A stretch of DNA of 64,000 bases from Candidatus Phycosocius bacilliformis (GTDB lineage: Bacteria; Pseudomonadota; Alphaproteobacteria; Caulobacterales; Aquidulcibacteraceae), in contig NZ_BFBR01000012.1 in NCBI RefSeq assembly GCF_003112735.1, positions 1 to 64,000 on the forward strand. The letters run 5' to 3'. Below are positions 54,906 to 63,890 of the stretch, in pieces; position 1 is the first letter of the stretch; the number at the start of each line of letters is the position of its first letter. Under the pieces are notes generated by a model. That model searched no databases. It was given only the letters and a program-made list of their open reading frames with translations, and was not told the origin of the DNA. The translations under genes were made by a program, and so were the position numbers.

Positions 54906-57371
54906 TCAGAAATTATAGGTGACGCGGGCCAAGATGCGACGTGGCAACACCGGGCGACCGACAAAGAAAGCGCCATTAGCCGCCTGATTATTGTCCTGAC
55001 GCGGCGAGCCTTCGGTCACGGCATCATCATCGAACAAATTGTAGACATTGAGGCTGAAACGAGCACTCTTGGCACCAATTGGCAGGGTATAGCCGACATC
55101 TAGATTCACAATATTCCATTCGTCCAGCAAGATGGTGTTGCTGGAAGAGGTATAATTTGACCCGGTAAAATTGGTGAACAAGGAGGCATCCCACGTGCCG
55201 TCGTCATAATAGAGTCCGGCATTGTATAGGAACCCGGGCTGACGCTCCACATCCTTACCAATCAGGGCGGTATTGGAATCAAACGCGCTATATTGGTTTG
55301 ACTGCAGGGTCATGTTGCCGCTGAAGCGAAGATGCTTTGTCAGCTTGTAATCCAATGTAGCTTCCACCGCATAGGATTCAGTGCCGACCAAATTGACCTT
55401 CTCGATGAAACCGCCCGCCCCGTCATTGACGAACAGAACTTGCCGGCGATTATCCAAGCTGGTGGCGAGCCCGGCCAAGGTGAGCGACAATTTAGGCATG
55501 TTCATCTTCAAACCGACTTCACCCTGATGGATGATCTCGGCCTTGTAAGACGAGGGCTGAAACAGGCTGTTGAACGAGACAGAGCGTAATTCGGGGAAGA
55601 AATACCCGCGCGAGAAGTTAGCATAGAGGCTAACCCGGTCGGTTGCCTTATAAAGCGCACCAATCGCACCGGCCCATTCGGAGGTAGAGACTTTGCCGAC
55701 GGTAAAGGCGCCATTACCCCAGATTACATCGCGCAAAGCATTCGACAGATTGGCTGTGGTTGAATCGGTGATGGTAACAGAGGTACGCTCTCGACGGATA
55801 TTGCCGTTGAGCGTCTCGACCCGGAAGCCGATGTCGAGATTGACCTTCTCGCCGATCTTGATCTGATCCGCGACATAGCCAGCATAACGCTCCGCCTCAT
55901 GATGATTGTTGACATAGCCCGCACCGGCATTGAGCAGGCCATTGCGCGCAATGATGGTTTGACTTGCCCCATTGGTGACAACCAGGTTTACCAATCGGGG
56001 GCGATTGTTAAGTTCGGCCAGATAGGTCGTGGTGACATTATAGTCCCCCGCGCTGGCCTTGCCGTAAAAACCGCCGACCGTAATGGTGTGATCCAGTGAG
56101 CCAGTGGTGAGAGACTTGGTCAGATTAAGCTCGGCGGTCGTGTCTTGAGCCGGCCGGACCCGATCTGTGAAGCGGTTGGCAAACAACAGAGCATTTGCCC
56201 CAACCGCTGCGCCACCAACATAGGTAAAGCTTGCATTGGCCGTGCTGCCCAGACCACGATTGGTTAAGAAGCTTTGCAGGGTTTCAGGAACATTGATTAC
56301 CCCATCGCCATCAGAGAACAGCCCGAACTTGTGCTTGTAATCGCTGTGTTTAAGGCGACCATTAGCAGCCCAACCGCTATCCCCGAAGGACTTGTCGAAG
56401 CTCAGAGCGACTTGCCCGCCTTTTGTGCTCACCCCGTCATTTATATCTGAAACAAAATTGCCGGTTGGGGTTTTGAAGCCCAAGCTGGGGCCGAAATCAT
56501 TCTGGACCGAGTCAACAATTTGCCCATCATTGCCCACTAAGCGCTTGCGCGTTGTGCCATTGAGCGGGATCGGCAGATAGAATTGCACCTGATCGTCGAT
56601 GTATTGGCCATAGAGTGTGACCGATCCGCTGCCATCCCCAAAGCGATAATCGAGGTTGCCGCGCACTTGGCCGCCAACTGTATCAAGATTGGTATCCAGC
56701 GGGCCCTTATCGGTGCGATAATAGCCTGAGACAGCATAAAAAAGTTTATCACTGATCGGGCCGCCAACTGCAAAATCGCCTTTAATGCGATCATTTTCAC
56801 CCAGTTCGAGTTGCGCTGTCCCTTGATAGGTCTCTCCACCTTTCTTCGAGATATAATTGATCATCCCAGCCACGGAACCCGGACCAAACAGGTTGGACAC
56901 CCCACCGCGAACAAACTCAAGCCTCTGCACACCCAGATCATTGCGATAATAAACATCGTATGCGGAGGAGTTTAGACCAAAGCTCGACAGGACAGTCACC
57001 CCGTCATACATCAATGGCGTGAATTGGTACTGTCCGCCGGAGGGCAGACCTTTGACGAAAATGTTAGCAGCGACTTCACCACCACCGCCATCGGCCTTGA
57101 TCGTGGGAACCGAATTGAGGATGTCGGCCTGGCCACTCGCCGCCAAACGTGACAGGCTCTGGGCGTTGATCTGAGTAACCGCCAGAGGCGTGTCGAGGGC
57201 AACCCGACCACGACTTGTCCCAGTCACGATCACCACCTCAACCTCTTTTTCTGGTGCTTGATCATCGGCTTGGGCTGGGTTGGTTGGCTGTGTCTGCGCC
57301 CAAGCCATGGGCGCAAAGGCAAACAGCGACACGCCGCTCATAGCGATCGCCAGCTTCGAAGCTGCTTTCAT
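54906..57371 (-). CDS. TonB-dependent receptor of the glycosylglycerate locus
   Basis: 821 residues from ATG 57371, which follows GGGGAGAG; the frame's earlier Met is less likely. Signal peptide MKAASKLAIAMSGVSLFAFAPMAWAQ; TonB-box-like VEVVIVTGTS; plug with QADILNSVPTIKADGGGGEVAANIFVKGLPSGGQYQFTP and GVQRLEFVRGGVSNLFGPGSVAGMINYISK; barrel ends VTYNF. First gene of the locus, divergent from the ROK-type regulator. Predicted cargo is a charged glycoside such as mannosyl- or glucosylglycerate by context only. Confidence 0.94.
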   Translation of the reverse strand: MKAASKLAIAMSGVSLFAFAPMAWAQTQPTNPAQADDQAPEKEVEVVIVTGTSRGRVALDTPLAVTQINAQSLSRLAASGQADILNSVPTIKADGGGGEVAANIFVKGLPSGGQYQFTPLMYDGVTVLSSFGLNSSAYDVYYRNDLGVQRLEFVRGGVSNLFGPGSVAGMINYISKKGGETYQGTAQLELGENDRIKGDFAVGGPISDKLFYAVSGYYRTDKGPLDTNLDTVGGQVRGNLDYRFGDGSGSVTLYGQYIDDQVQFYLPIPLNGTTRKRLVGNDGQIVDSVQNDFGPSLGFKTPTGNFVSDINDGVSTKGGQVALSFDKSFGDSGWAANGRLKHSDYKHKFGLFSDGDGVINVPETLQSFLTNRGLGSTANASFTYVGGAAVGANALLFANRFTDRVRPAQDTTAELNLTKSLTTGSLDHTITVGGFYGKASAGDYNVTTTYLAELNNRPRLVNLVVTNGASQTIIARNGLLNAGAGYVNNHHEAERYAGYVADQIKIGEKVNLDIGFRVETLNGNIRRERTSVTITDSTTANLSNALRDVIWGNGAFTVGKVSTSEWAGAIGALYKATDRVSLYANFSRGYFFPELRSVSFNSLFQPSSYKAEIIHQGEVGLKMNMPKLSLTLAGLATSLDNRRQVLFVNDGAGGFIEKVNLVGTESYAVEATLDYKLTKHLRFSGNMTLQSNQYSAFDSNTALIGKDVERQPGFLYNAGLYYDDGTWDASLFTNFTGSNYTSSSNTILLDEWNIVNLDVGYTLPIGAKSARFSLNVYNLFDDDAVTEGSPRQDNNQAANGAFFVGRPVLPRRILARVTYNF

Positions 57372-57508
57372 CGTTTCTCTCCCCGTCGCTGGATGCACCT
57401 ACCCGCCCCAGCTTTTTGTCCGCATGAGAAGACTAGCACGATTAAAACTTATGACAAGTATTATTAGGAAGTCGATCTGTTGCACTCTGGCGGAGTTCAC
57501 GCCACACT

Positions 57509-58657
57509 GTGTCCATGCGTGAGATACTTGAGCCCAATCATCGGTTTACGCTGCCATCGGACAGCGAAATGGCGATCTTGAGTCATATTTTGCGCCATAA
57601 GGGCTCGGCCCAGCCTGATATTGTTCAAGCCACAGATTTGTCTCAGCAAACGGTTTCACGTCTTGTGAATAGCTTGTTGGATCGTGGCGCGGTGCAATTG
57701 GCCGGACGCATCCCCAATGGTCGGCGCGGACAACCCCGCCTCAAGCTCGAGATCGCGCCAGGCTATGCCTACGCGCTGGGTGTGGCCCTCATGACAGATG
57801 CCATGTCGGTCGTGTTGATGGACTTTGCCGGCCAAGTGGTCGATTACCAGCATATTGAAATGCCAAAAATGACGCGCCCTGCCGTATTCTCCCGGCTAAA
57901 GGACAGTGTCTCCACCTTTCTCCACCGCCATCCCAGCGCACAAGATCGCTTGTTCGGGGTCGGTATTGGAATTTCCGGCTATTGCCTCGATGGACGTGCG
58001 CGCTACAACCCACCTGCGGCGCTCGATGATTGGGCCAAGGTCGATATTGATCAGTTGTTCACCGACGCACTTGGCCTGCCTGCCTGGGTTGAAAATGATG
58101 GCAATGCCGCAGCAATCGGGGAAAGCCTCTTGGGCGTTGGGCGACGCTATGCCAATTTCGTTTATATGTTCATTGCGGCAGGCATTGGCGGTGGGGTGAT
58201 CTCAAATCAACGCCTATTGCGCGGTGTGCATGGCAACGGTGGGGAAATCGGCTTGATGCTGCCGCGCAATATGTTTGAATTGCCGACATTAGAGACACTC
58301 TTGGCCTCGGTCCGCGACCATGGCATCCAGGTATCAAGCATTTCAGAAATGCTGGCCCAATTTGATGCCACGTGGCCGGGTGTTGATGCCTGGATCGGGC
58401 GGGCCAGAGAGCCTTTATCCCGTATCGCCTCGTCGATCGCGGCCCTACTCGACCCCGAAGCCATTGTATTGGGCGGGCGACTCCCACCGGAATTATCTGC
58501 CAAAATCATTCCGATGATTGAGCTTTATGATGACGCTCGGCGCGAGGAACCCCGACCTCTGCCCCGATTGCTGGTCTCAGAGACCCAGGTTGACGCCTGC
58601 GCAATCGGGGCTGCCATGTTGCCACTGGAAAAGCAGTTTTTCGCCAGCATGGTCTAG
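57509..58657 (+). CDS. ROK-family transcriptional regulator (NagC/XylR-like)
   Basis: 382 residues from GTG 57509, with an ATG two codons later. N-terminal winged HTH (SEMAILSHILRHKGSAQPDIVQATDLSQQTVSRLVNSLLDRGAVQLAG) is joined to a sugar-kinase-fold domain with ALGVALMTDAMSVVLMDFAG, VENDGNAAAIGESLLG and GIGGGVISNQRLLRGVHGNGGEIG. The Cys-rich zinc loop of active ROK kinases is missing, so it should be a sugar-sensing repressor. Divergent from the TBDR start by 137 bases; it probably controls the glycosylglycerate operon. Confidence 0.9.
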   Translation: MSMREILEPNHRFTLPSDSEMAILSHILRHKGSAQPDIVQATDLSQQTVSRLVNSLLDRGAVQLAGRIPNGRRGQPRLKLEIAPGYAYALGVALMTDAMSVVLMDFAGQVVDYQHIEMPKMTRPAVFSRLKDSVSTFLHRHPSAQDRLFGVGIGISGYCLDGRARYNPPAALDDWAKVDIDQLFTDALGLPAWVENDGNAAAIGESLLGVGRRYANFVYMFIAAGIGGGVISNQRLLRGVHGNGGEIGLMLPRNMFELPTLETLLASVRDHGIQVSSISEMLAQFDATWPGVDAWIGRAREPLSRIASSIAALLDPEAIVLGGRLPPELSAKIIPMIELYDDARREEPRPLPRLLVSETQVDACAIGAAMLPLEKQFFASMV

Positions 58658-58666
58658 GCTGTCGCC

Positions 58667-59146
58667 CTAGTTAGGGCAATCGCCGATACGTCGGCCGCTC
58701 AGCTTGGTGACCAAAAGCCGCCGCATCATCGTGCCGCGCCCGACCAAGACAAAGTCATCGGCGGCATAGCTACCCTGCCATTGCGTTCGCATCTGGCCGA
58801 AGGGCATGGCGCAATGGGTTTCATAGCTGATTTGAGTTCCATCGACGACAAGGTTGTGGGTTTCGCATGTCAGGGCGGCCCTTCCCGGGGGTGGTGCGGG
58901 CATGAACAACGCCATCGGGTCCTTTTGACGCTGGTCACTCGTCAAGCAAATGCTGCGCGTCTGGATTTGATCCGCATCGGGACCGACATTGATGCTTTGG
59001 CTAATCTGCCAAGCCCCGACATTCATTGCCGGCTGTGGGACGGCGAGCGCGGCCAGCGAGGCGGGAGCCGCTGCTGCCAGACAATAGATCAAAGCTTCCA
59101 GAAACATTCTGGCAGGTCTTGGCGTGGTCTTGGATTGCGTGTGCAT
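58667..59146 (-). CDS. DUF3617 family exported protein
   Basis: 159 residues. Hydrophobic N-terminal segment (MFLEALIYCLAAAAPASLAALA) is probably a signal. DUF3617 features: GAWQISQSINVGP, SICLTSDQR with Cys, TCETHNLVVDGTQISYETHC, MRTQWQGSYAADDFVLVGR, and a C-terminal RRIGDC with another Cys, so a disulfide is likely. DUF3617 is a lipocalin-like periplasmic family of unknown role. Shares its promoter region with the response regulator gene. Confidence 0.87.
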   Translation of the reverse strand: MHTQSKTTPRPARMFLEALIYCLAAAAPASLAALAVPQPAMNVGAWQISQSINVGPDADQIQTRSICLTSDQRQKDPMALFMPAPPPGRAALTCETHNLVVDGTQISYETHCAMPFGQMRTQWQGSYAADDFVLVGRGTMMRRLLVTKLSGRRIGDCPN

Positions 59147-59232
59147 GGATAAAGCCTTTCATCCGCCCCATTCCTTGCCTAACCCATGTTTGGCGCATGT
59201 GCGTGACAGCGATTGACCGCCCGCGGCTCAAT

Positions 59233-59250
59233 TGTGACAATCTGTGACAA
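59233..59250. promoter_or_regulatory. Direct repeat upstream of response regulator gene
   Basis: TGTGACAA at 59233-59240 and again at 59243-59250, one helical turn apart, 91 bases upstream of the regulator start. OmpR-family regulators bind such tandem half-sites. The same pattern lies upstream of the adjacent receptor at 61402-61419. Confidence 0.6.
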
Positions 59251-59340
59251 GGCGATTGAAATGGCAGAGATTCTGGGCTGAAGGGGGTTACATGCCACGT
59301 CGTTAGGCCGGACGCAGGCAATTAAGAAGACCGTTGCATC

Positions 59341-60075
59341 ATGATAACGCCCGAGACGCCCCATATTTTAATTGTCGATGATCACCGAGAGATTCGCGAA
59401 AGTTTGGGTGCTTTTCTGCGCCGGCACGGACGGCGGGTCACCACTGCCGACTCTGTCACTGCAGCTCGTGAAGCCCTAAAAATCAATCGGTTTGATTTGA
59501 TTGTGTTGGATATCATGATGCCCGGCGAGGATGGACTGTCTTTTTGTAAGTCGCTCAGTCCCTACCAGTCGCCGCCCGTGATTCTGATTTCGGCGCGCGG
59601 CGATGATGTCGATCGTATAATCGGGTTGGAAATCGGAGCGGATGATTATGTTTCCAAGCCTTTTAACCCGCGTGAGCTCCTAGCCCGGATTGATGCGGTC
59701 ATTCGACGTGCCATCCAACCTCCACGTGGGAGTGTGTCGGGCACTCTGCGTAAAGCCCGATTTGGCGATTGGACCTTCTCACCAACTCAGTTCCGTCTGC
59801 AGCAAACCGGGGGGGAGGCATTCCTTTTATCTTCTACCGAAGCACGTCTGCTACAGGTGCTGGTCCAACGGCCTGGCATCGCGTTTTCCCGTGACCAATT
59901 GCTCGATTTGTCGAGCGTCCACGGTCTTGATATCAGCGAACGAGCCATCGACACTCAAATCTCCCGTTTGCGGAGAAAGTTGGGCGACGATCCAAAGAAT
60001 CCGCGCTTCATCCAGACAATTTGGGGTGGCGGCTATGTCTTTGCGGAGGCCGTGACATGGACGGACGAAAACTGA
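59341..60075 (+). CDS. OmpR-family response regulator
   Basis: 244 residues. Receiver domain with VDDHREIRE, phosphorylation site D57 in IVLDIMMPGEDG, and YVSKPFNPREL. A long linker (IQPPRGSVSGTLRKARFGDW) precedes a winged-helix domain with FLLSSTEARLLQVLVQRPGIAFSRDQLLDLS and ERAIDTQISRLRRKL. Its 3' end overlaps the kinase gene by 19 bases. Identical direct repeats before this gene and before the receptor suggest autoregulation and control of the receptor. Confidence 0.95.
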   Translation: MITPETPHILIVDDHREIRESLGAFLRRHGRRVTTADSVTAAREALKINRFDLIVLDIMMPGEDGLSFCKSLSPYQSPPVILISARGDDVDRIIGLEIGADDYVSKPFNPRELLARIDAVIRRAIQPPRGSVSGTLRKARFGDWTFSPTQFRLQQTGGEAFLLSSTEARLLQVLVQRPGIAFSRDQLLDLSSVHGLDISERAIDTQISRLRRKLGDDPKNPRFIQTIWGGGYVFAEAVTWTDEN

Positions 60076-61388
60076 TCGGATCTACCCTTGCGATGCAAGT
60101 CGGGGGGCTGGCCGTACTGGCCGTGATCTTGTCGAATGTTCTGACGGTCGTGTTCTTCTTCGGCGACCGAAATGAGATCATTCGAGGCATTATCAATGCG
60201 GAAGCCATGGCTCGGCTGACCCCAATTGTCAGCACTTTGGCACGCGGCGACTCCTTGAAGCTGGATGAAGGCCTAACCGTCTATCCGGCTGAGACCTGGC
60301 ACGCTGACCCAGCCCATTGGCAGGAGGCTCCCGATTTGGCCAAGCAGATTATGGCGACGTCCGGGACGACGGGCCTTGCGGTCTTCACCCCTCGACTTTC
60401 TGGAATTTCTTTCACGGATTTGTTCCAACAAGTCCAAAGCGGCGGTCCGCTTGTCGCAGCCTCGATCGCCTTGCCTGACAGAGACCCCCAAGTAGTCACA
60501 GTGCGTATACAGCCTGATCTGCCGCCCCCTTTGGCGGCATTGATTGCCACCTTGATATCGGGGGTCTTAATCACTTTGGGCACGAGCATATTGATAGGCA
60601 GGATGACCAAGCCCCTGACGGCTTTGGCCGCAGCATCAGAACGCATCGGGCTGAACGGCAATATCGACAACGTTCCGGTCCGGGGGCCATTAGAGTTGAA
60701 GATCGCCGCTGGGGCCTTCAATCGGATGGCTCAGCGCATCAGCCAGCTGCTGGATCGCCAGCGTGCAACCCTGTGGGCCCTGGGACATGATTTGCGCACC
60801 CCAGTGACAGCAATGCGGATTCGCTTGGAATTGGTTGATGATCCAGACTCGCGTGAGCGTTTACGCGAGTCGGTCAGCGAGATTGAACGGGTCGTCGAAG
60901 ATGCCTTGTTTTTGGCGCGCAGTGAGCTGGCAGCAGCGCCAAACCAGCTTGCCTTGCTTGATCACCTCGTCGACCAAGCGATCAGTGGTCTGATGGAGAC
61001 CGATCCCGCCCTCGCCAGCCGTCTGGAAATTGTGAGAAATCCCGCGGCGCGCGTGCTTGCGCGGCCAAATGATCTGGTGCGCGCCATTCGCAATCTGATC
61101 CATAATGGGCTGCGCCACACCCAAGGGCAGGTAAAGGTGCGCATCTGTGCAGAGCCCACGCCGAGCATCGAAGTTGTCGATTGTGGAGAAGGACTGCCTC
61201 AGGAAATCCTGCAATCCCCCGGTGAGCCCTTTACCCGCGGTGATCGCGCGCGCAGTGCAGATGGCAGCACGGGACTTGGCTTGGCCATTGTCCGTTCCAT
61301 CGCTCAAGGACATCAGGCTGAGCTGCAGGCTGAAAACCGCCGCGACGCCAGCGGAACGATCATGCGTTTGATCTTTAAGCCGTCGTGA
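60057..61388 (+). CDS. EnvZ-like sensor histidine kinase
   Basis: 443 residues from ATG 60057; the open frame before it is the regulator's coding region. Helix at about 10-35, periplasmic sensor of about 120 residues without a known domain, helix at about 160-180, HAMP (GRMTKPLTALAAASERIG), phospho-acceptor H244 in LWALGHDLRTPVTAMRIRLE, and ATPase motifs NLIHNGLRHT, DCGEGLP and STGLGLAIVRSIAQGH. Partner of the regulator upstream. The periplasmic domain may sense substrate or state of the adjacent outer-membrane receptor. Confidence 0.94.
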   Translation: MDGRKLIGSTLAMQVGGLAVLAVILSNVLTVVFFFGDRNEIIRGIINAEAMARLTPIVSTLARGDSLKLDEGLTVYPAETWHADPAHWQEAPDLAKQIMATSGTTGLAVFTPRLSGISFTDLFQQVQSGGPLVAASIALPDRDPQVVTVRIQPDLPPPLAALIATLISGVLITLGTSILIGRMTKPLTALAAASERIGLNGNIDNVPVRGPLELKIAAGAFNRMAQRISQLLDRQRATLWALGHDLRTPVTAMRIRLELVDDPDSRERLRESVSEIERVVEDALFLARSELAAAPNQLALLDHLVDQAISGLMETDPALASRLEIVRNPAARVLARPNDLVRAIRNLIHNGLRHTQGQVKVRICAEPTPSIEVVDCGEGLPQEILQSPGEPFTRGDRARSADGSTGLGLAIVRSIAQGHQAELQAENRRDASGTIMRLIFKPS

Positions 61389-61401
61389 TCCTATCGGTCA
61401 C

Positions 61402-61419
61402 TTGTCACAATTTGCCACA
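61402..61419. promoter_or_regulatory. Direct repeat upstream of the TBDR-like gene
   Basis: On the minus strand, TGTGGCAA (61412-61419) and TGTGACAA (61402-61409) lie 10 bases apart, matching 59233-59250 except for one base. The element is 84 bases before the receptor start. Confidence 0.6.
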
Positions 61420-61502
61420 TCTGAACAAAGACTTGGCACACATGATCCTGCACGATCATTTAAATCCACGGCCATCCTTCATGTCTGACAAGAGATGGTC
61501 TT

Positions 61503-63890
61503 ATGCACAAACTTTCCCTTCTGGCCTCAACCACAATCTGCCTTAGCCTAGGCCTGCCTCAGATAAGCAGCGCCCAATCTGCCCCAACGGCGTCACCCAC
61601 CGTCAAGCCTGATCCGGCAATGGAGGTGGTGGTGGTACGCGGCGCGCGATTGCCGGAAAGCGTTCCCGGAGATGCCAAGCCAGAACTGGTAATCGGAACT
61701 TTTGACATTCGAACCACGGGTGCCACCACCCTACCCGAACTTCTTGTTACACTCTTGCCGCAAACCCAAAGCGGGGCGCGCAGAGGCGACAATAAGCCGA
61801 TCCTCCTGGTCAACGGACGGCGGGTGGCTGATTTCAGCGAAATACGCGCTATCCCCGTGCGCGCGATCCGCCGGGTCGAAGTCTATCCTGAAGATGTTGC
61901 GCTAAGGTACGGCTTTCCGGCTGATCAGAAAGTCGTCAATCTCATCTTGTTTGGCAGCTTTTCAATCCGCGGGGTGACAATTGGTGTGGGCCAGGCCGCT
62001 GATGCCGAACGCGACACATTGGACGTTATTCTCGATTCAACCCGGATTGATGGCCAAGGTCGGTCAGTGTTCAGCTTGGATGGCACAAGGGCCAGCGGCG
62101 TAAGCGAGCAGGATTTGGGAATATCCTTGTCGACGGGTGGCCTTCCCGGTGTCCGAAGCATCTTGCCCAAGACTGAATCATATCGATTGTCCGGCGCGGT
62201 AGGACGATCCGTTGTGGGGCTTGGTGAACAAGGCTATGCAACTTTTGGCTTGGATGCCCAAGCGCAGCAGGATGAAGCCGCGCTCGGCCGCAGCCTCAAT
62301 GGCACACGCCTGTTGCGCGACACTGATATCAACAAACTCAAAACCTCCCTCACCGCTGAAGGCGTCGCCAAGGAGTTACGCTGGAATATCATTGGTGCGG
62401 CCCGCTCTGAAGAAACCAACACCCGCACAGATCGAAGTGACGGAGGCCGACGCGACCGCACCAACCAAAAGCTATCGGGGGCCAGTTTAGACGCCAATCT
62501 CGCAGGGCCTGTGCATGGGATTGGGGTCGGAACGGGGGCTTTCAGCTTACGGAGCCTAGTGTCGGCTGACCGGCTTGAGTCCAACTTTACCCGCGGTGTG
62601 TTGAGCGGAACGACCGAGTTAGACCGCACGACACTTGATGTGAATGGCAGCCTGACCATTCCGCTTTTGAGCCGAAAGGCCGCAGGAAACCCAATGGGTG
62701 ATGTGTCTTTGACCCTTAATGGCGAATTGGCGAGCAGCAGTGATTACGGCGGGACAGGCGGCTGGGGGTCAGGTTTGACTTGGTCTCCCACCAGCGCACT
62801 CCAGATCACCACACGCTACACGACGCGCGAAACATTACCAGCGCTGGAACAATTGGGGGGACCACAGACCACTCTGCCGTCGGCATCTATCTATGACGCA
62901 CGTACCGGCCAAAGTGTGCGGATTGATGAAACGCGCGGCGGAAATCGAGCCTTGCAGCCGGAACAGCAACGGGATTTCATCTTGGGGGCCAGTTTCGCCC
63001 CGCTCCAAATTGATGGGTTGAATCTGTCTCTGACCTATGCCCGCAATAAGACCGAGGATTACATTGGCAGCATCGGCGTCAACACGCGCGCAGCTGAAGC
63101 CGCCTTTCCTAGCCGCTACCAACGCAACAGCAGCGGTGCACTGGTAGGGCTCGATACACGGGCCCTGAATCTTGGTGACCGGACAACCCAAACTCTAAGC
63201 CTTGGACTATCCTACAGCCGCAACTTCGGCCAGGCACCGCAATTTCTGCGCGACATTGTTGAGAAGGTGAAGAAAGCCCAGGATGACAATCCCGATGCGA
63301 CCGGTTTGCCGGGTGGCCTGCCTCCCGGTGTGACGCCACCACCCGGCTTCAAGCCCCCACCGGGCGGCACACCGCCAGATTTTGATCAGCTACTTCAGGC
63401 CGCCAAAATTCCCGGCGGACGGTGGAATATTGGCTTGAATTATGCCTATACGCTCGATGATAGCTTGATCCTGAAGAATAGTGGCGTGAAGCTTGACTTG
63501 CTCGACGGCGGGGCACTCGACACCAATATGGGCCATCGTCACGAGCTGACACTCGATGGCGGACTGAATTATCGCGGCATTGGCGGGCGGCTGGCGGCGG
63601 TCTGGAAAGGCGATAGTGAAATCGCGACAGGCTATGGCGCTGAGCGCCTCTACGTCGGGGATCAGGCCACATTGGATCTTTCACTTTTTGCATCCACCGA
63701 CTTGATGCCCCAGCTCAATATGGCCCTTCCCTTCCTCAATGGGGCTCAAGTCCGTTTTGAAATCAACAATCTAACCGACAGCACGCAAAAGGTAACCAAT
63801 TCGGCGGGGTCAGTACCGACAGCCTATCAACGGTGGCTTTTGGAGCCAGAGGGGCGGAGTTACAAATTGAGCCTCAAGAAGCAATTCTAG
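61503..63890 (+). CDS. Atypical TonB-dependent receptor-like protein
   Basis: 795 residues. Signal peptide MHKLSLLASTTICLSLGLPQISSAQ; TonB-box-like MEVVVVRGAR. The plug is short (TLPELLVTLLPQTQSGARRGDNKPILLVNGRRVADFSEIRAIPVRAIRRVEVYPEDVALRYG) and ends in FPADQKVVNLIL rather than the usual GVINI. The barrel is present (EPEGRSYKLSLKKQF, ends in Phe). A Pro/Gly-rich insertion (GLPGGLPPGVTPPPGFKPPP) at about residues 600-620 probably lies in an extracellular loop. Seems to belong to a subclass of TBDR-like proteins with unknown cargo. Under probable control of the two-component system just upstream. Confidence 0.85.
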   Translation: MHKLSLLASTTICLSLGLPQISSAQSAPTASPTVKPDPAMEVVVVRGARLPESVPGDAKPELVIGTFDIRTTGATTLPELLVTLLPQTQSGARRGDNKPILLVNGRRVADFSEIRAIPVRAIRRVEVYPEDVALRYGFPADQKVVNLILFGSFSIRGVTIGVGQAADAERDTLDVILDSTRIDGQGRSVFSLDGTRASGVSEQDLGISLSTGGLPGVRSILPKTESYRLSGAVGRSVVGLGEQGYATFGLDAQAQQDEAALGRSLNGTRLLRDTDINKLKTSLTAEGVAKELRWNIIGAARSEETNTRTDRSDGGRRDRTNQKLSGASLDANLAGPVHGIGVGTGAFSLRSLVSADRLESNFTRGVLSGTTELDRTTLDVNGSLTIPLLSRKAAGNPMGDVSLTLNGELASSSDYGGTGGWGSGLTWSPTSALQITTRYTTRETLPALEQLGGPQTTLPSASIYDARTGQSVRIDETRGGNRALQPEQQRDFILGASFAPLQIDGLNLSLTYARNKTEDYIGSIGVNTRAAEAAFPSRYQRNSSGALVGLDTRALNLGDRTTQTLSLGLSYSRNFGQAPQFLRDIVEKVKKAQDDNPDATGLPGGLPPGVTPPPGFKPPPGGTPPDFDQLLQAAKIPGGRWNIGLNYAYTLDDSLILKNSGVKLDLLDGGALDTNMGHRHELTLDGGLNYRGIGGRLAAVWKGDSEIATGYGAERLYVGDQATLDLSLFASTDLMPQLNMALPFLNGAQVRFEINNLTDSTQKVTNSAGSVPTAYQRWLLEPEGRSYKLSLKKQF

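Follow-up and report, generated by a model that had tools for sequence, protein, structure and literature searches.

The locus

The window, the whole stretch of 64,000 nucleotides that was analysed, carries a block of four genes near its end. The first encodes a secreted protein (58667-59146, minus strand; Pfam DUF3617, E=1.9e-9) and is divergent from the second, which encodes an OmpR-type response regulator of 244 amino acids (59341-60075, plus strand). The regulator has a receiver domain (Pfam Response_reg, 3.8e-30), a winged-helix domain (Trans_reg_C, 2.9e-21) and a phospho-acceptor that its sequence position predicts to be Asp57, which together place it in the OmpR/PhoB family. Overlapping it by 19 bp is the gene for a membrane sensor histidine kinase of 443 amino acids (60057-61388, plus strand) with HAMP, HisKA and HATPase_c domains. 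An alignment of six orthologues puts its phospho-acceptor at His244 and its periplasmic sensor at about residues 37-157. The best NCBIfam models are OmpR for the regulator (231.5 bits, cut-off 331) and EnvZ for the kinase (130.2 bits, cut-off 415), so neither protein reaches the score that defines these equivalogs. The sensor domain was modelled at pLDDT 86, and the model has no match at E<=0.001 among solved PDB structures, PfeS included. A PfeS-like periplasmic PAS sensor is therefore not recognised in this kinase, and we dropped the attempt to read the ligand from the fold.

The fourth gene (61503-63890, plus strand) encodes a protein of 795 amino acids that the preliminary description took for an unusual TonB-dependent receptor (TBDR). 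It has no Pfam match above cut-off, the plug model reaching only E=0.07, and a sequence search of solved structures gave nothing useful. Among its homologues, one exceeds the cut-off of the barrel model, and the plug model matches several below threshold. The AlphaFold model (pLDDT 79, pTM 0.76) has a plug at about residues 60-150 followed by a large barrel at 153-795, with a Pro/Gly-rich insert at about 599-625. Foldseek finds 182 PDB matches to this model at E<=0.001, the best being PirA, Cir and PfeA (E 7.5e-26 to 2.7e-24). The model thus has the N-terminal plug inside a barrel that marks a TonB-dependent receptor, an assignment made on plug and barrel and not on a count of the 22 strands that the definition also names. 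We believe the predicted fold and the structural matches bear out the gene as a divergent TBDR. A stretch after the signal peptide, EVVVVRGAR at residues 41-49, is conserved as ExIVVxGxR and could possibly be the TonB box.

More distant homologues of the receptor are about 25-35% identical. They have neither a two-component system nor a common partner gene beside them, so a substrate could not be read from their neighbours and we abandoned that route. Since these homologues lack an adjoining two-component system, the linkage appears to be an Aquidulcibacter feature among the genomes examined. All nine of the Aquidulcibacter genomes that we examined have a receptor paralogue with a long Gly/Pro-rich insert (L046:6514-9072; G000:C1). 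Its neighbourhood includes membrane insertase-like and GTPase genes and, at a distance of a few kb, another regulator-kinase pair of the OmpR type. The window also holds a conventional TBDR gene (54906-57398, minus strand) divergent to a ROK-family regulator gene (57509-58657, plus strand). This pair (54906-58657) is likely a sugar-uptake locus, and it accompanies the two-component block in G003, G006, G007 and G008.

Repeat sites at two promoters

The preliminary description pointed to a direct repeat at one-turn spacing before the regulator and to a copy with one change before the receptor, and both are there. The regulator-promoter site is TGTGACAA-TC-TGTGACAA (59233-59250, plus strand, TGTGACAATCTGTGACAA), with no mismatches and its half-sites 10 bp apart from start to start. 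The receptor-promoter site is TGTGGCAA-AT-TGTGACAA (61402-61419, minus strand, TGTGGCAAATTGTGACAA), with one mismatch to TGTGACAA-N2-TGTGACAA. The genome scan that the same description proposed was done by pattern matching with mismatches, not by matrix scoring. In the whole 3.33 Mb genome these two are the only matches with zero or one mismatch, the receptor site being the second best; after them come two sites elsewhere with 2 mismatches. From base composition one expects 0.0009 exact sites and 0.045 sites with at most one mismatch in the whole genome, and 1.5e-6 of the latter in the 114 bp that separate the receptor from the kinase. On the match quality, the rarity in the genome and these expectations we rejected a chance origin of the two sites.

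It was also claimed that the receptor site is inverted relative to the regulator site. It does read on the minus strand with one mismatch, but this claim is fragile: reverse-complementing the half-site TTGTSACAA returns almost the same sequence, which leaves a single base, the central one in each half, to define the direction. The receptor sites of the five other species read GTGACA-N5-TG(T/C)CAC on the plus strand, which is an inverted repeat and not a reversed direct repeat. Site-like elements also occur in both directions within one promoter of the sister genus.

Just downstream of the regulator site is a possible -35 element, ATTGAA (59255-59260, plus strand), which is invariant in six species. 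The candidate receptor promoter (61433-61462, plus strand) consists of TTGGCA (61433-61438), an 18-nt spacer and CATTTA (61457-61462), and the receptor site ends 13 bp upstream of its -35. This candidate appears in the alignment as partly conserved TTGNCG...GATCTAAA-like blocks and was not picked up by a sigma-70 consensus scan. The gap between kinase and receptor contains no terminator-like site, so read-through from the kinase gene into the receptor is possible.

Conservation among Aquidulcibacter genomes

Orthologous loci in named genomes assign the organism to Aquidulcibacter; a scan of such genomes gave four relatives from this genus and, besides them, a single remote hit. The block of DUF3617 gene, regulator, kinase and receptor is found in six Aquidulcibacter genomes, split over two contigs in G001. 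Our footprinting alignment covers these six species, the window's own and five others with the regulator, and three congeners that do not have the regulator serve as a contrast. Upstream of the regulator, TGTGACAATCTGTGACAAGG is invariant over 20 columns (59233-59252), while 25% of the other columns are invariant and the next longest run is 7. Upstream of the receptor, the downstream half of the site, TTGYCACA, is invariant in all six species and the upstream half varies. Invariant columns make up 12/17 of the receptor site and 37/93 elsewhere (Fisher p=0.018), and in conservation the receptor site falls behind that of the regulator.

Each of the other five regulator-bearing genomes has a single exact copy of the repeat, which lies at the regulator, and the three congeners without the regulator have none. 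The DUF3617 protein has no match in these congeners, and of the receptor they retain the paralogue but no close orthologue. A DUF3617 orthologue, transcribed divergently from the regulator, occurs in 6/6 regulator-bearing genomes versus 0/3 of those without. This gene has its promoter region in common with the regulator, and we think it a probable third target, one that the preliminary description had not included. In G007 this gene (G007:C160:33500-33930) matches in two frames, which is either a frameshift or a sequence error. The receptor gene of G003 is interrupted (L040:3560-5936, minus strand), two frames being joined near residue 321, so it is a pseudogene or contains a sequence error; the regulator and its site are intact in that genome.

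The sister genus as an independent comparison

The closest regulators outside the genus, at 54-59% identity, belong to the sister genus g11. Their promoters carry a conserved site with the consensus CTTGCCTAAGTGTGTCGC and a second site, GCCAAGGTTTGGCACAA. The pattern TTGNCNAANTGTGTC has exactly one occurrence in 7/10 g11 genomes and none in the remaining three, and each occurrence is about 100 bp before the regulator orthologue.

We built a matrix solely from the g11 first sites and ran it on 356,452 positions of Aquidulcibacter sequence. The top four positions are the receptor-promoter sites of G001, G003, G007 and G008, at 21.6, 17.1, 15.9 and 15.9 bits, and the next position scores 12.5. 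Because a matrix from another genus puts these four on top, we believe that the sequence recognised by this lineage of regulators is present at the receptor promoter. The result is independent of the repeat that had been picked out beforehand. In the window, the receptor site ranks third in the 64 kb with this matrix, at 9.0 bits, and that of G006 is weaker, both of its halves scoring poorly. There is also a weaker site-like element, TGACAGCGATTGAC (59204-59217, strand not assigned), at the regulator, where it precedes the main repeat by about three turns. It is partly conserved, aligning in other species with a TGACA-N5-TGgC-like element, and the G001 copy scores 16.5 bits with a matrix from the g11 second site; we regard it as a candidate only.

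A probable local circuit and its alternatives

The recognition sequence is almost unique to the promoters of the pair and of the transporter, and for this reason the two-component pair very probably controls the adjacent outer-membrane transporter gene. Uniqueness in the genome, the footprint in six species, the presence and absence among congeners and the g11 motif all favour the preliminary prediction that the regulator controls both its own gene and the neighbouring receptor gene. As read from these sites, it is a real and well-supported regulatory link confined to one locus.

The reading we prefer, and think likely, is a local, self-controlling circuit in which the receptor gene is activated. 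The membrane kinase would read a periplasmic signal and phosphorylate the regulator. Two places would then be bound by a regulator dimer, each through a pair of TGTGACA-like half-sites separated by one helical turn. One lies in the region that divides the DUF3617 gene from the regulator-kinase operon, the other directly ahead of the receptor's candidate -35. Phosphorylation would most likely activate the receptor gene and the regulator's own operon, and perhaps the DUF3617 gene as well. The cell would in this way make more of the outer-membrane transporter on sensing either the transported substrate or a need for it, if signal and substrate do correspond. Weaker conservation of the receptor site, its poor g11-matrix scores in G006 and third rank in the window, the differing arrangement of the two sites and possible read-through from the kinase gene count against this circuit.

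The position just upstream of a -35 is a usual one for activation by OmpR/PhoB-type regulators. This position, together with the precedent of PfeR as an activator of a TBDR gene (PMC8001512), is why we favour activation, and we do so with modest confidence only because phosphorylated VgrR represses a TBDR gene, tdvA, in Xanthomonas (PMC5231390). The same wiring with the opposite sign, in which the phosphorylated regulator represses the receptor gene under a signal of stress or repletion, would also agree with Caulobacter, where ChvGI lowers the TBDR ChvT through an sRNA (PMC9731502), and with the different arrangement of the receptor site. However, the site ends upstream of the candidate promoter and does not cover it, and we consider repression unlikely.

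The receptor site might instead be decaying or non-functional, the regulator controlling only itself; transcripts of the receptor gene would then come from the kinase gene by read-through or from a basal promoter of its own. The site does vary more than the regulator site, the gap is short and without a terminator-like site, and the sister-genus system appears to have a single site. Against this, one half of the receptor site is invariant in six species, and the g11 matrix scores the orthologous receptor sites at 15.9-21.6 bits versus 8.2 bits for the regulator site of Aquidulcibacter. We find this reading quite improbable.

Another, more global regulator might read these repeats, as TGTGACA-like half-sites resemble those of several regulator families and as a site with 2-3 mismatches upstream of a pentapeptide-repeat gene is conserved irrespective of this regulator. 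We consider this very improbable, given how close to unique the site is within each genome and that its exact form is missing from the regulator-less congeners. ChvGI in particular can be set aside, since the published ChvI motif in Caulobacter, TTGC-N3-GCAA, is unlike these repeats (PMC9731502).

We also looked for a wider set of targets and rejected it, the other 2-3-mismatch sites being mostly before unrelated genes or within genes. The pentapeptide-repeat gene has the best conserved extra site, found in several species, and was dropped because the better half of that site is conserved in congeners without the regulator too. Upstream of this gene TTGTTACAACCATTTAAGTGG is invariant in 9/9 genomes, regulator or not (L101-L109). 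Control of the receptor paralogue (G000:C1) was likewise rejected: it has no TGTGACA-type site, the best match in the 350 bp upstream having 6 mismatches. This absence agrees with a circuit confined to the receptor's own locus.

Relation to known systems

The preliminary description remarked that control of a TBDR by an OmpR-type system is less usual. This is fair as a remark, but dedicated two-component control of TBDR genes is already established. In Pseudomonas aeruginosa PfeS/PfeR is dedicated to PfeA and PirS/PirR to PirA (PMC8001512), and in Xanthomonas campestris VgrR acts directly at the promoter of tdvA (PMC5231390). The locus described here has the layout of PfeRS-PfeA, with regulator and kinase genes beside the receptor gene, a predicted common operator and sites at both promoters in six species, and PirA and PfeA are themselves among the best structural matches of the receptor. 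It differs in that the receptor is only about 14% identical to theirs and in that the locus includes a DUF3617 gene. VgrRS resembles it in having a response regulator at a TBDR promoter, which here is predicted from the sites, but VgrR regulates hundreds of genes (PMC5231390) and these sites are confined to one locus. OmpR directly controls fecA and fepA in Yersinia (PMC10342277). EnvZ/OmpR provides the best NCBIfam matches of the pair; the scores are far below the equivalog cut-offs, and sites at one locus are unlike a global set.

We believe that the locus is a solid further instance, in a freshwater alphaproteobacterium, of a circuit type already known, and it adds an alphaproteobacterial case to the receptor-dedicated two-component systems. 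Our literature search found nothing on this Aquidulcibacter locus or on an EF-hand-linked system of the kind seen in g11. The prediction is clean and testable: a regulon of one locus with at most three promoters and conserved operators, for which the three congeners are natural controls. It includes a divergent TonB-dependent receptor overlooked by sequence models, and offers a way to approach both the substrate of this receptor family and the role of DUF3617 proteins.

Evolution of the locus

The more interesting side is evolutionary, since the regulator lineage and the operator are common to two genera while the sensor and output genes are different. Like the Aquidulcibacter system, the g11 system has a secreted-protein gene divergent from the regulator and a related operator. 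Unlike it, that gene encodes an EF-hand lipoprotein instead of DUF3617 in nearly all loci read (L066-L088), no receptor adjoins where examined, and the kinase sensor looks unrelated. It is possible, though we hold it only tentatively, that the locus was rewired: operator and regulator were conserved, the divergent output gene and the kinase sensor came to differ, and the receptor was gained through a single site, closing a loop of sensing and import in which the DUF3617 protein would be a periplasmic partner of the receptor or the sensor. The comparison is one of present-day loci and not of a reconstructed history. Comparison with the EF-hand-linked system could show circuits changing their inputs and outputs while the operator is kept. 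In most g11 kinases the detectable similarity to the Aquidulcibacter kinase starts only near residue 150, past the sensor, and the EF-hand lipoprotein suggests a calcium-related output or input in that genus.
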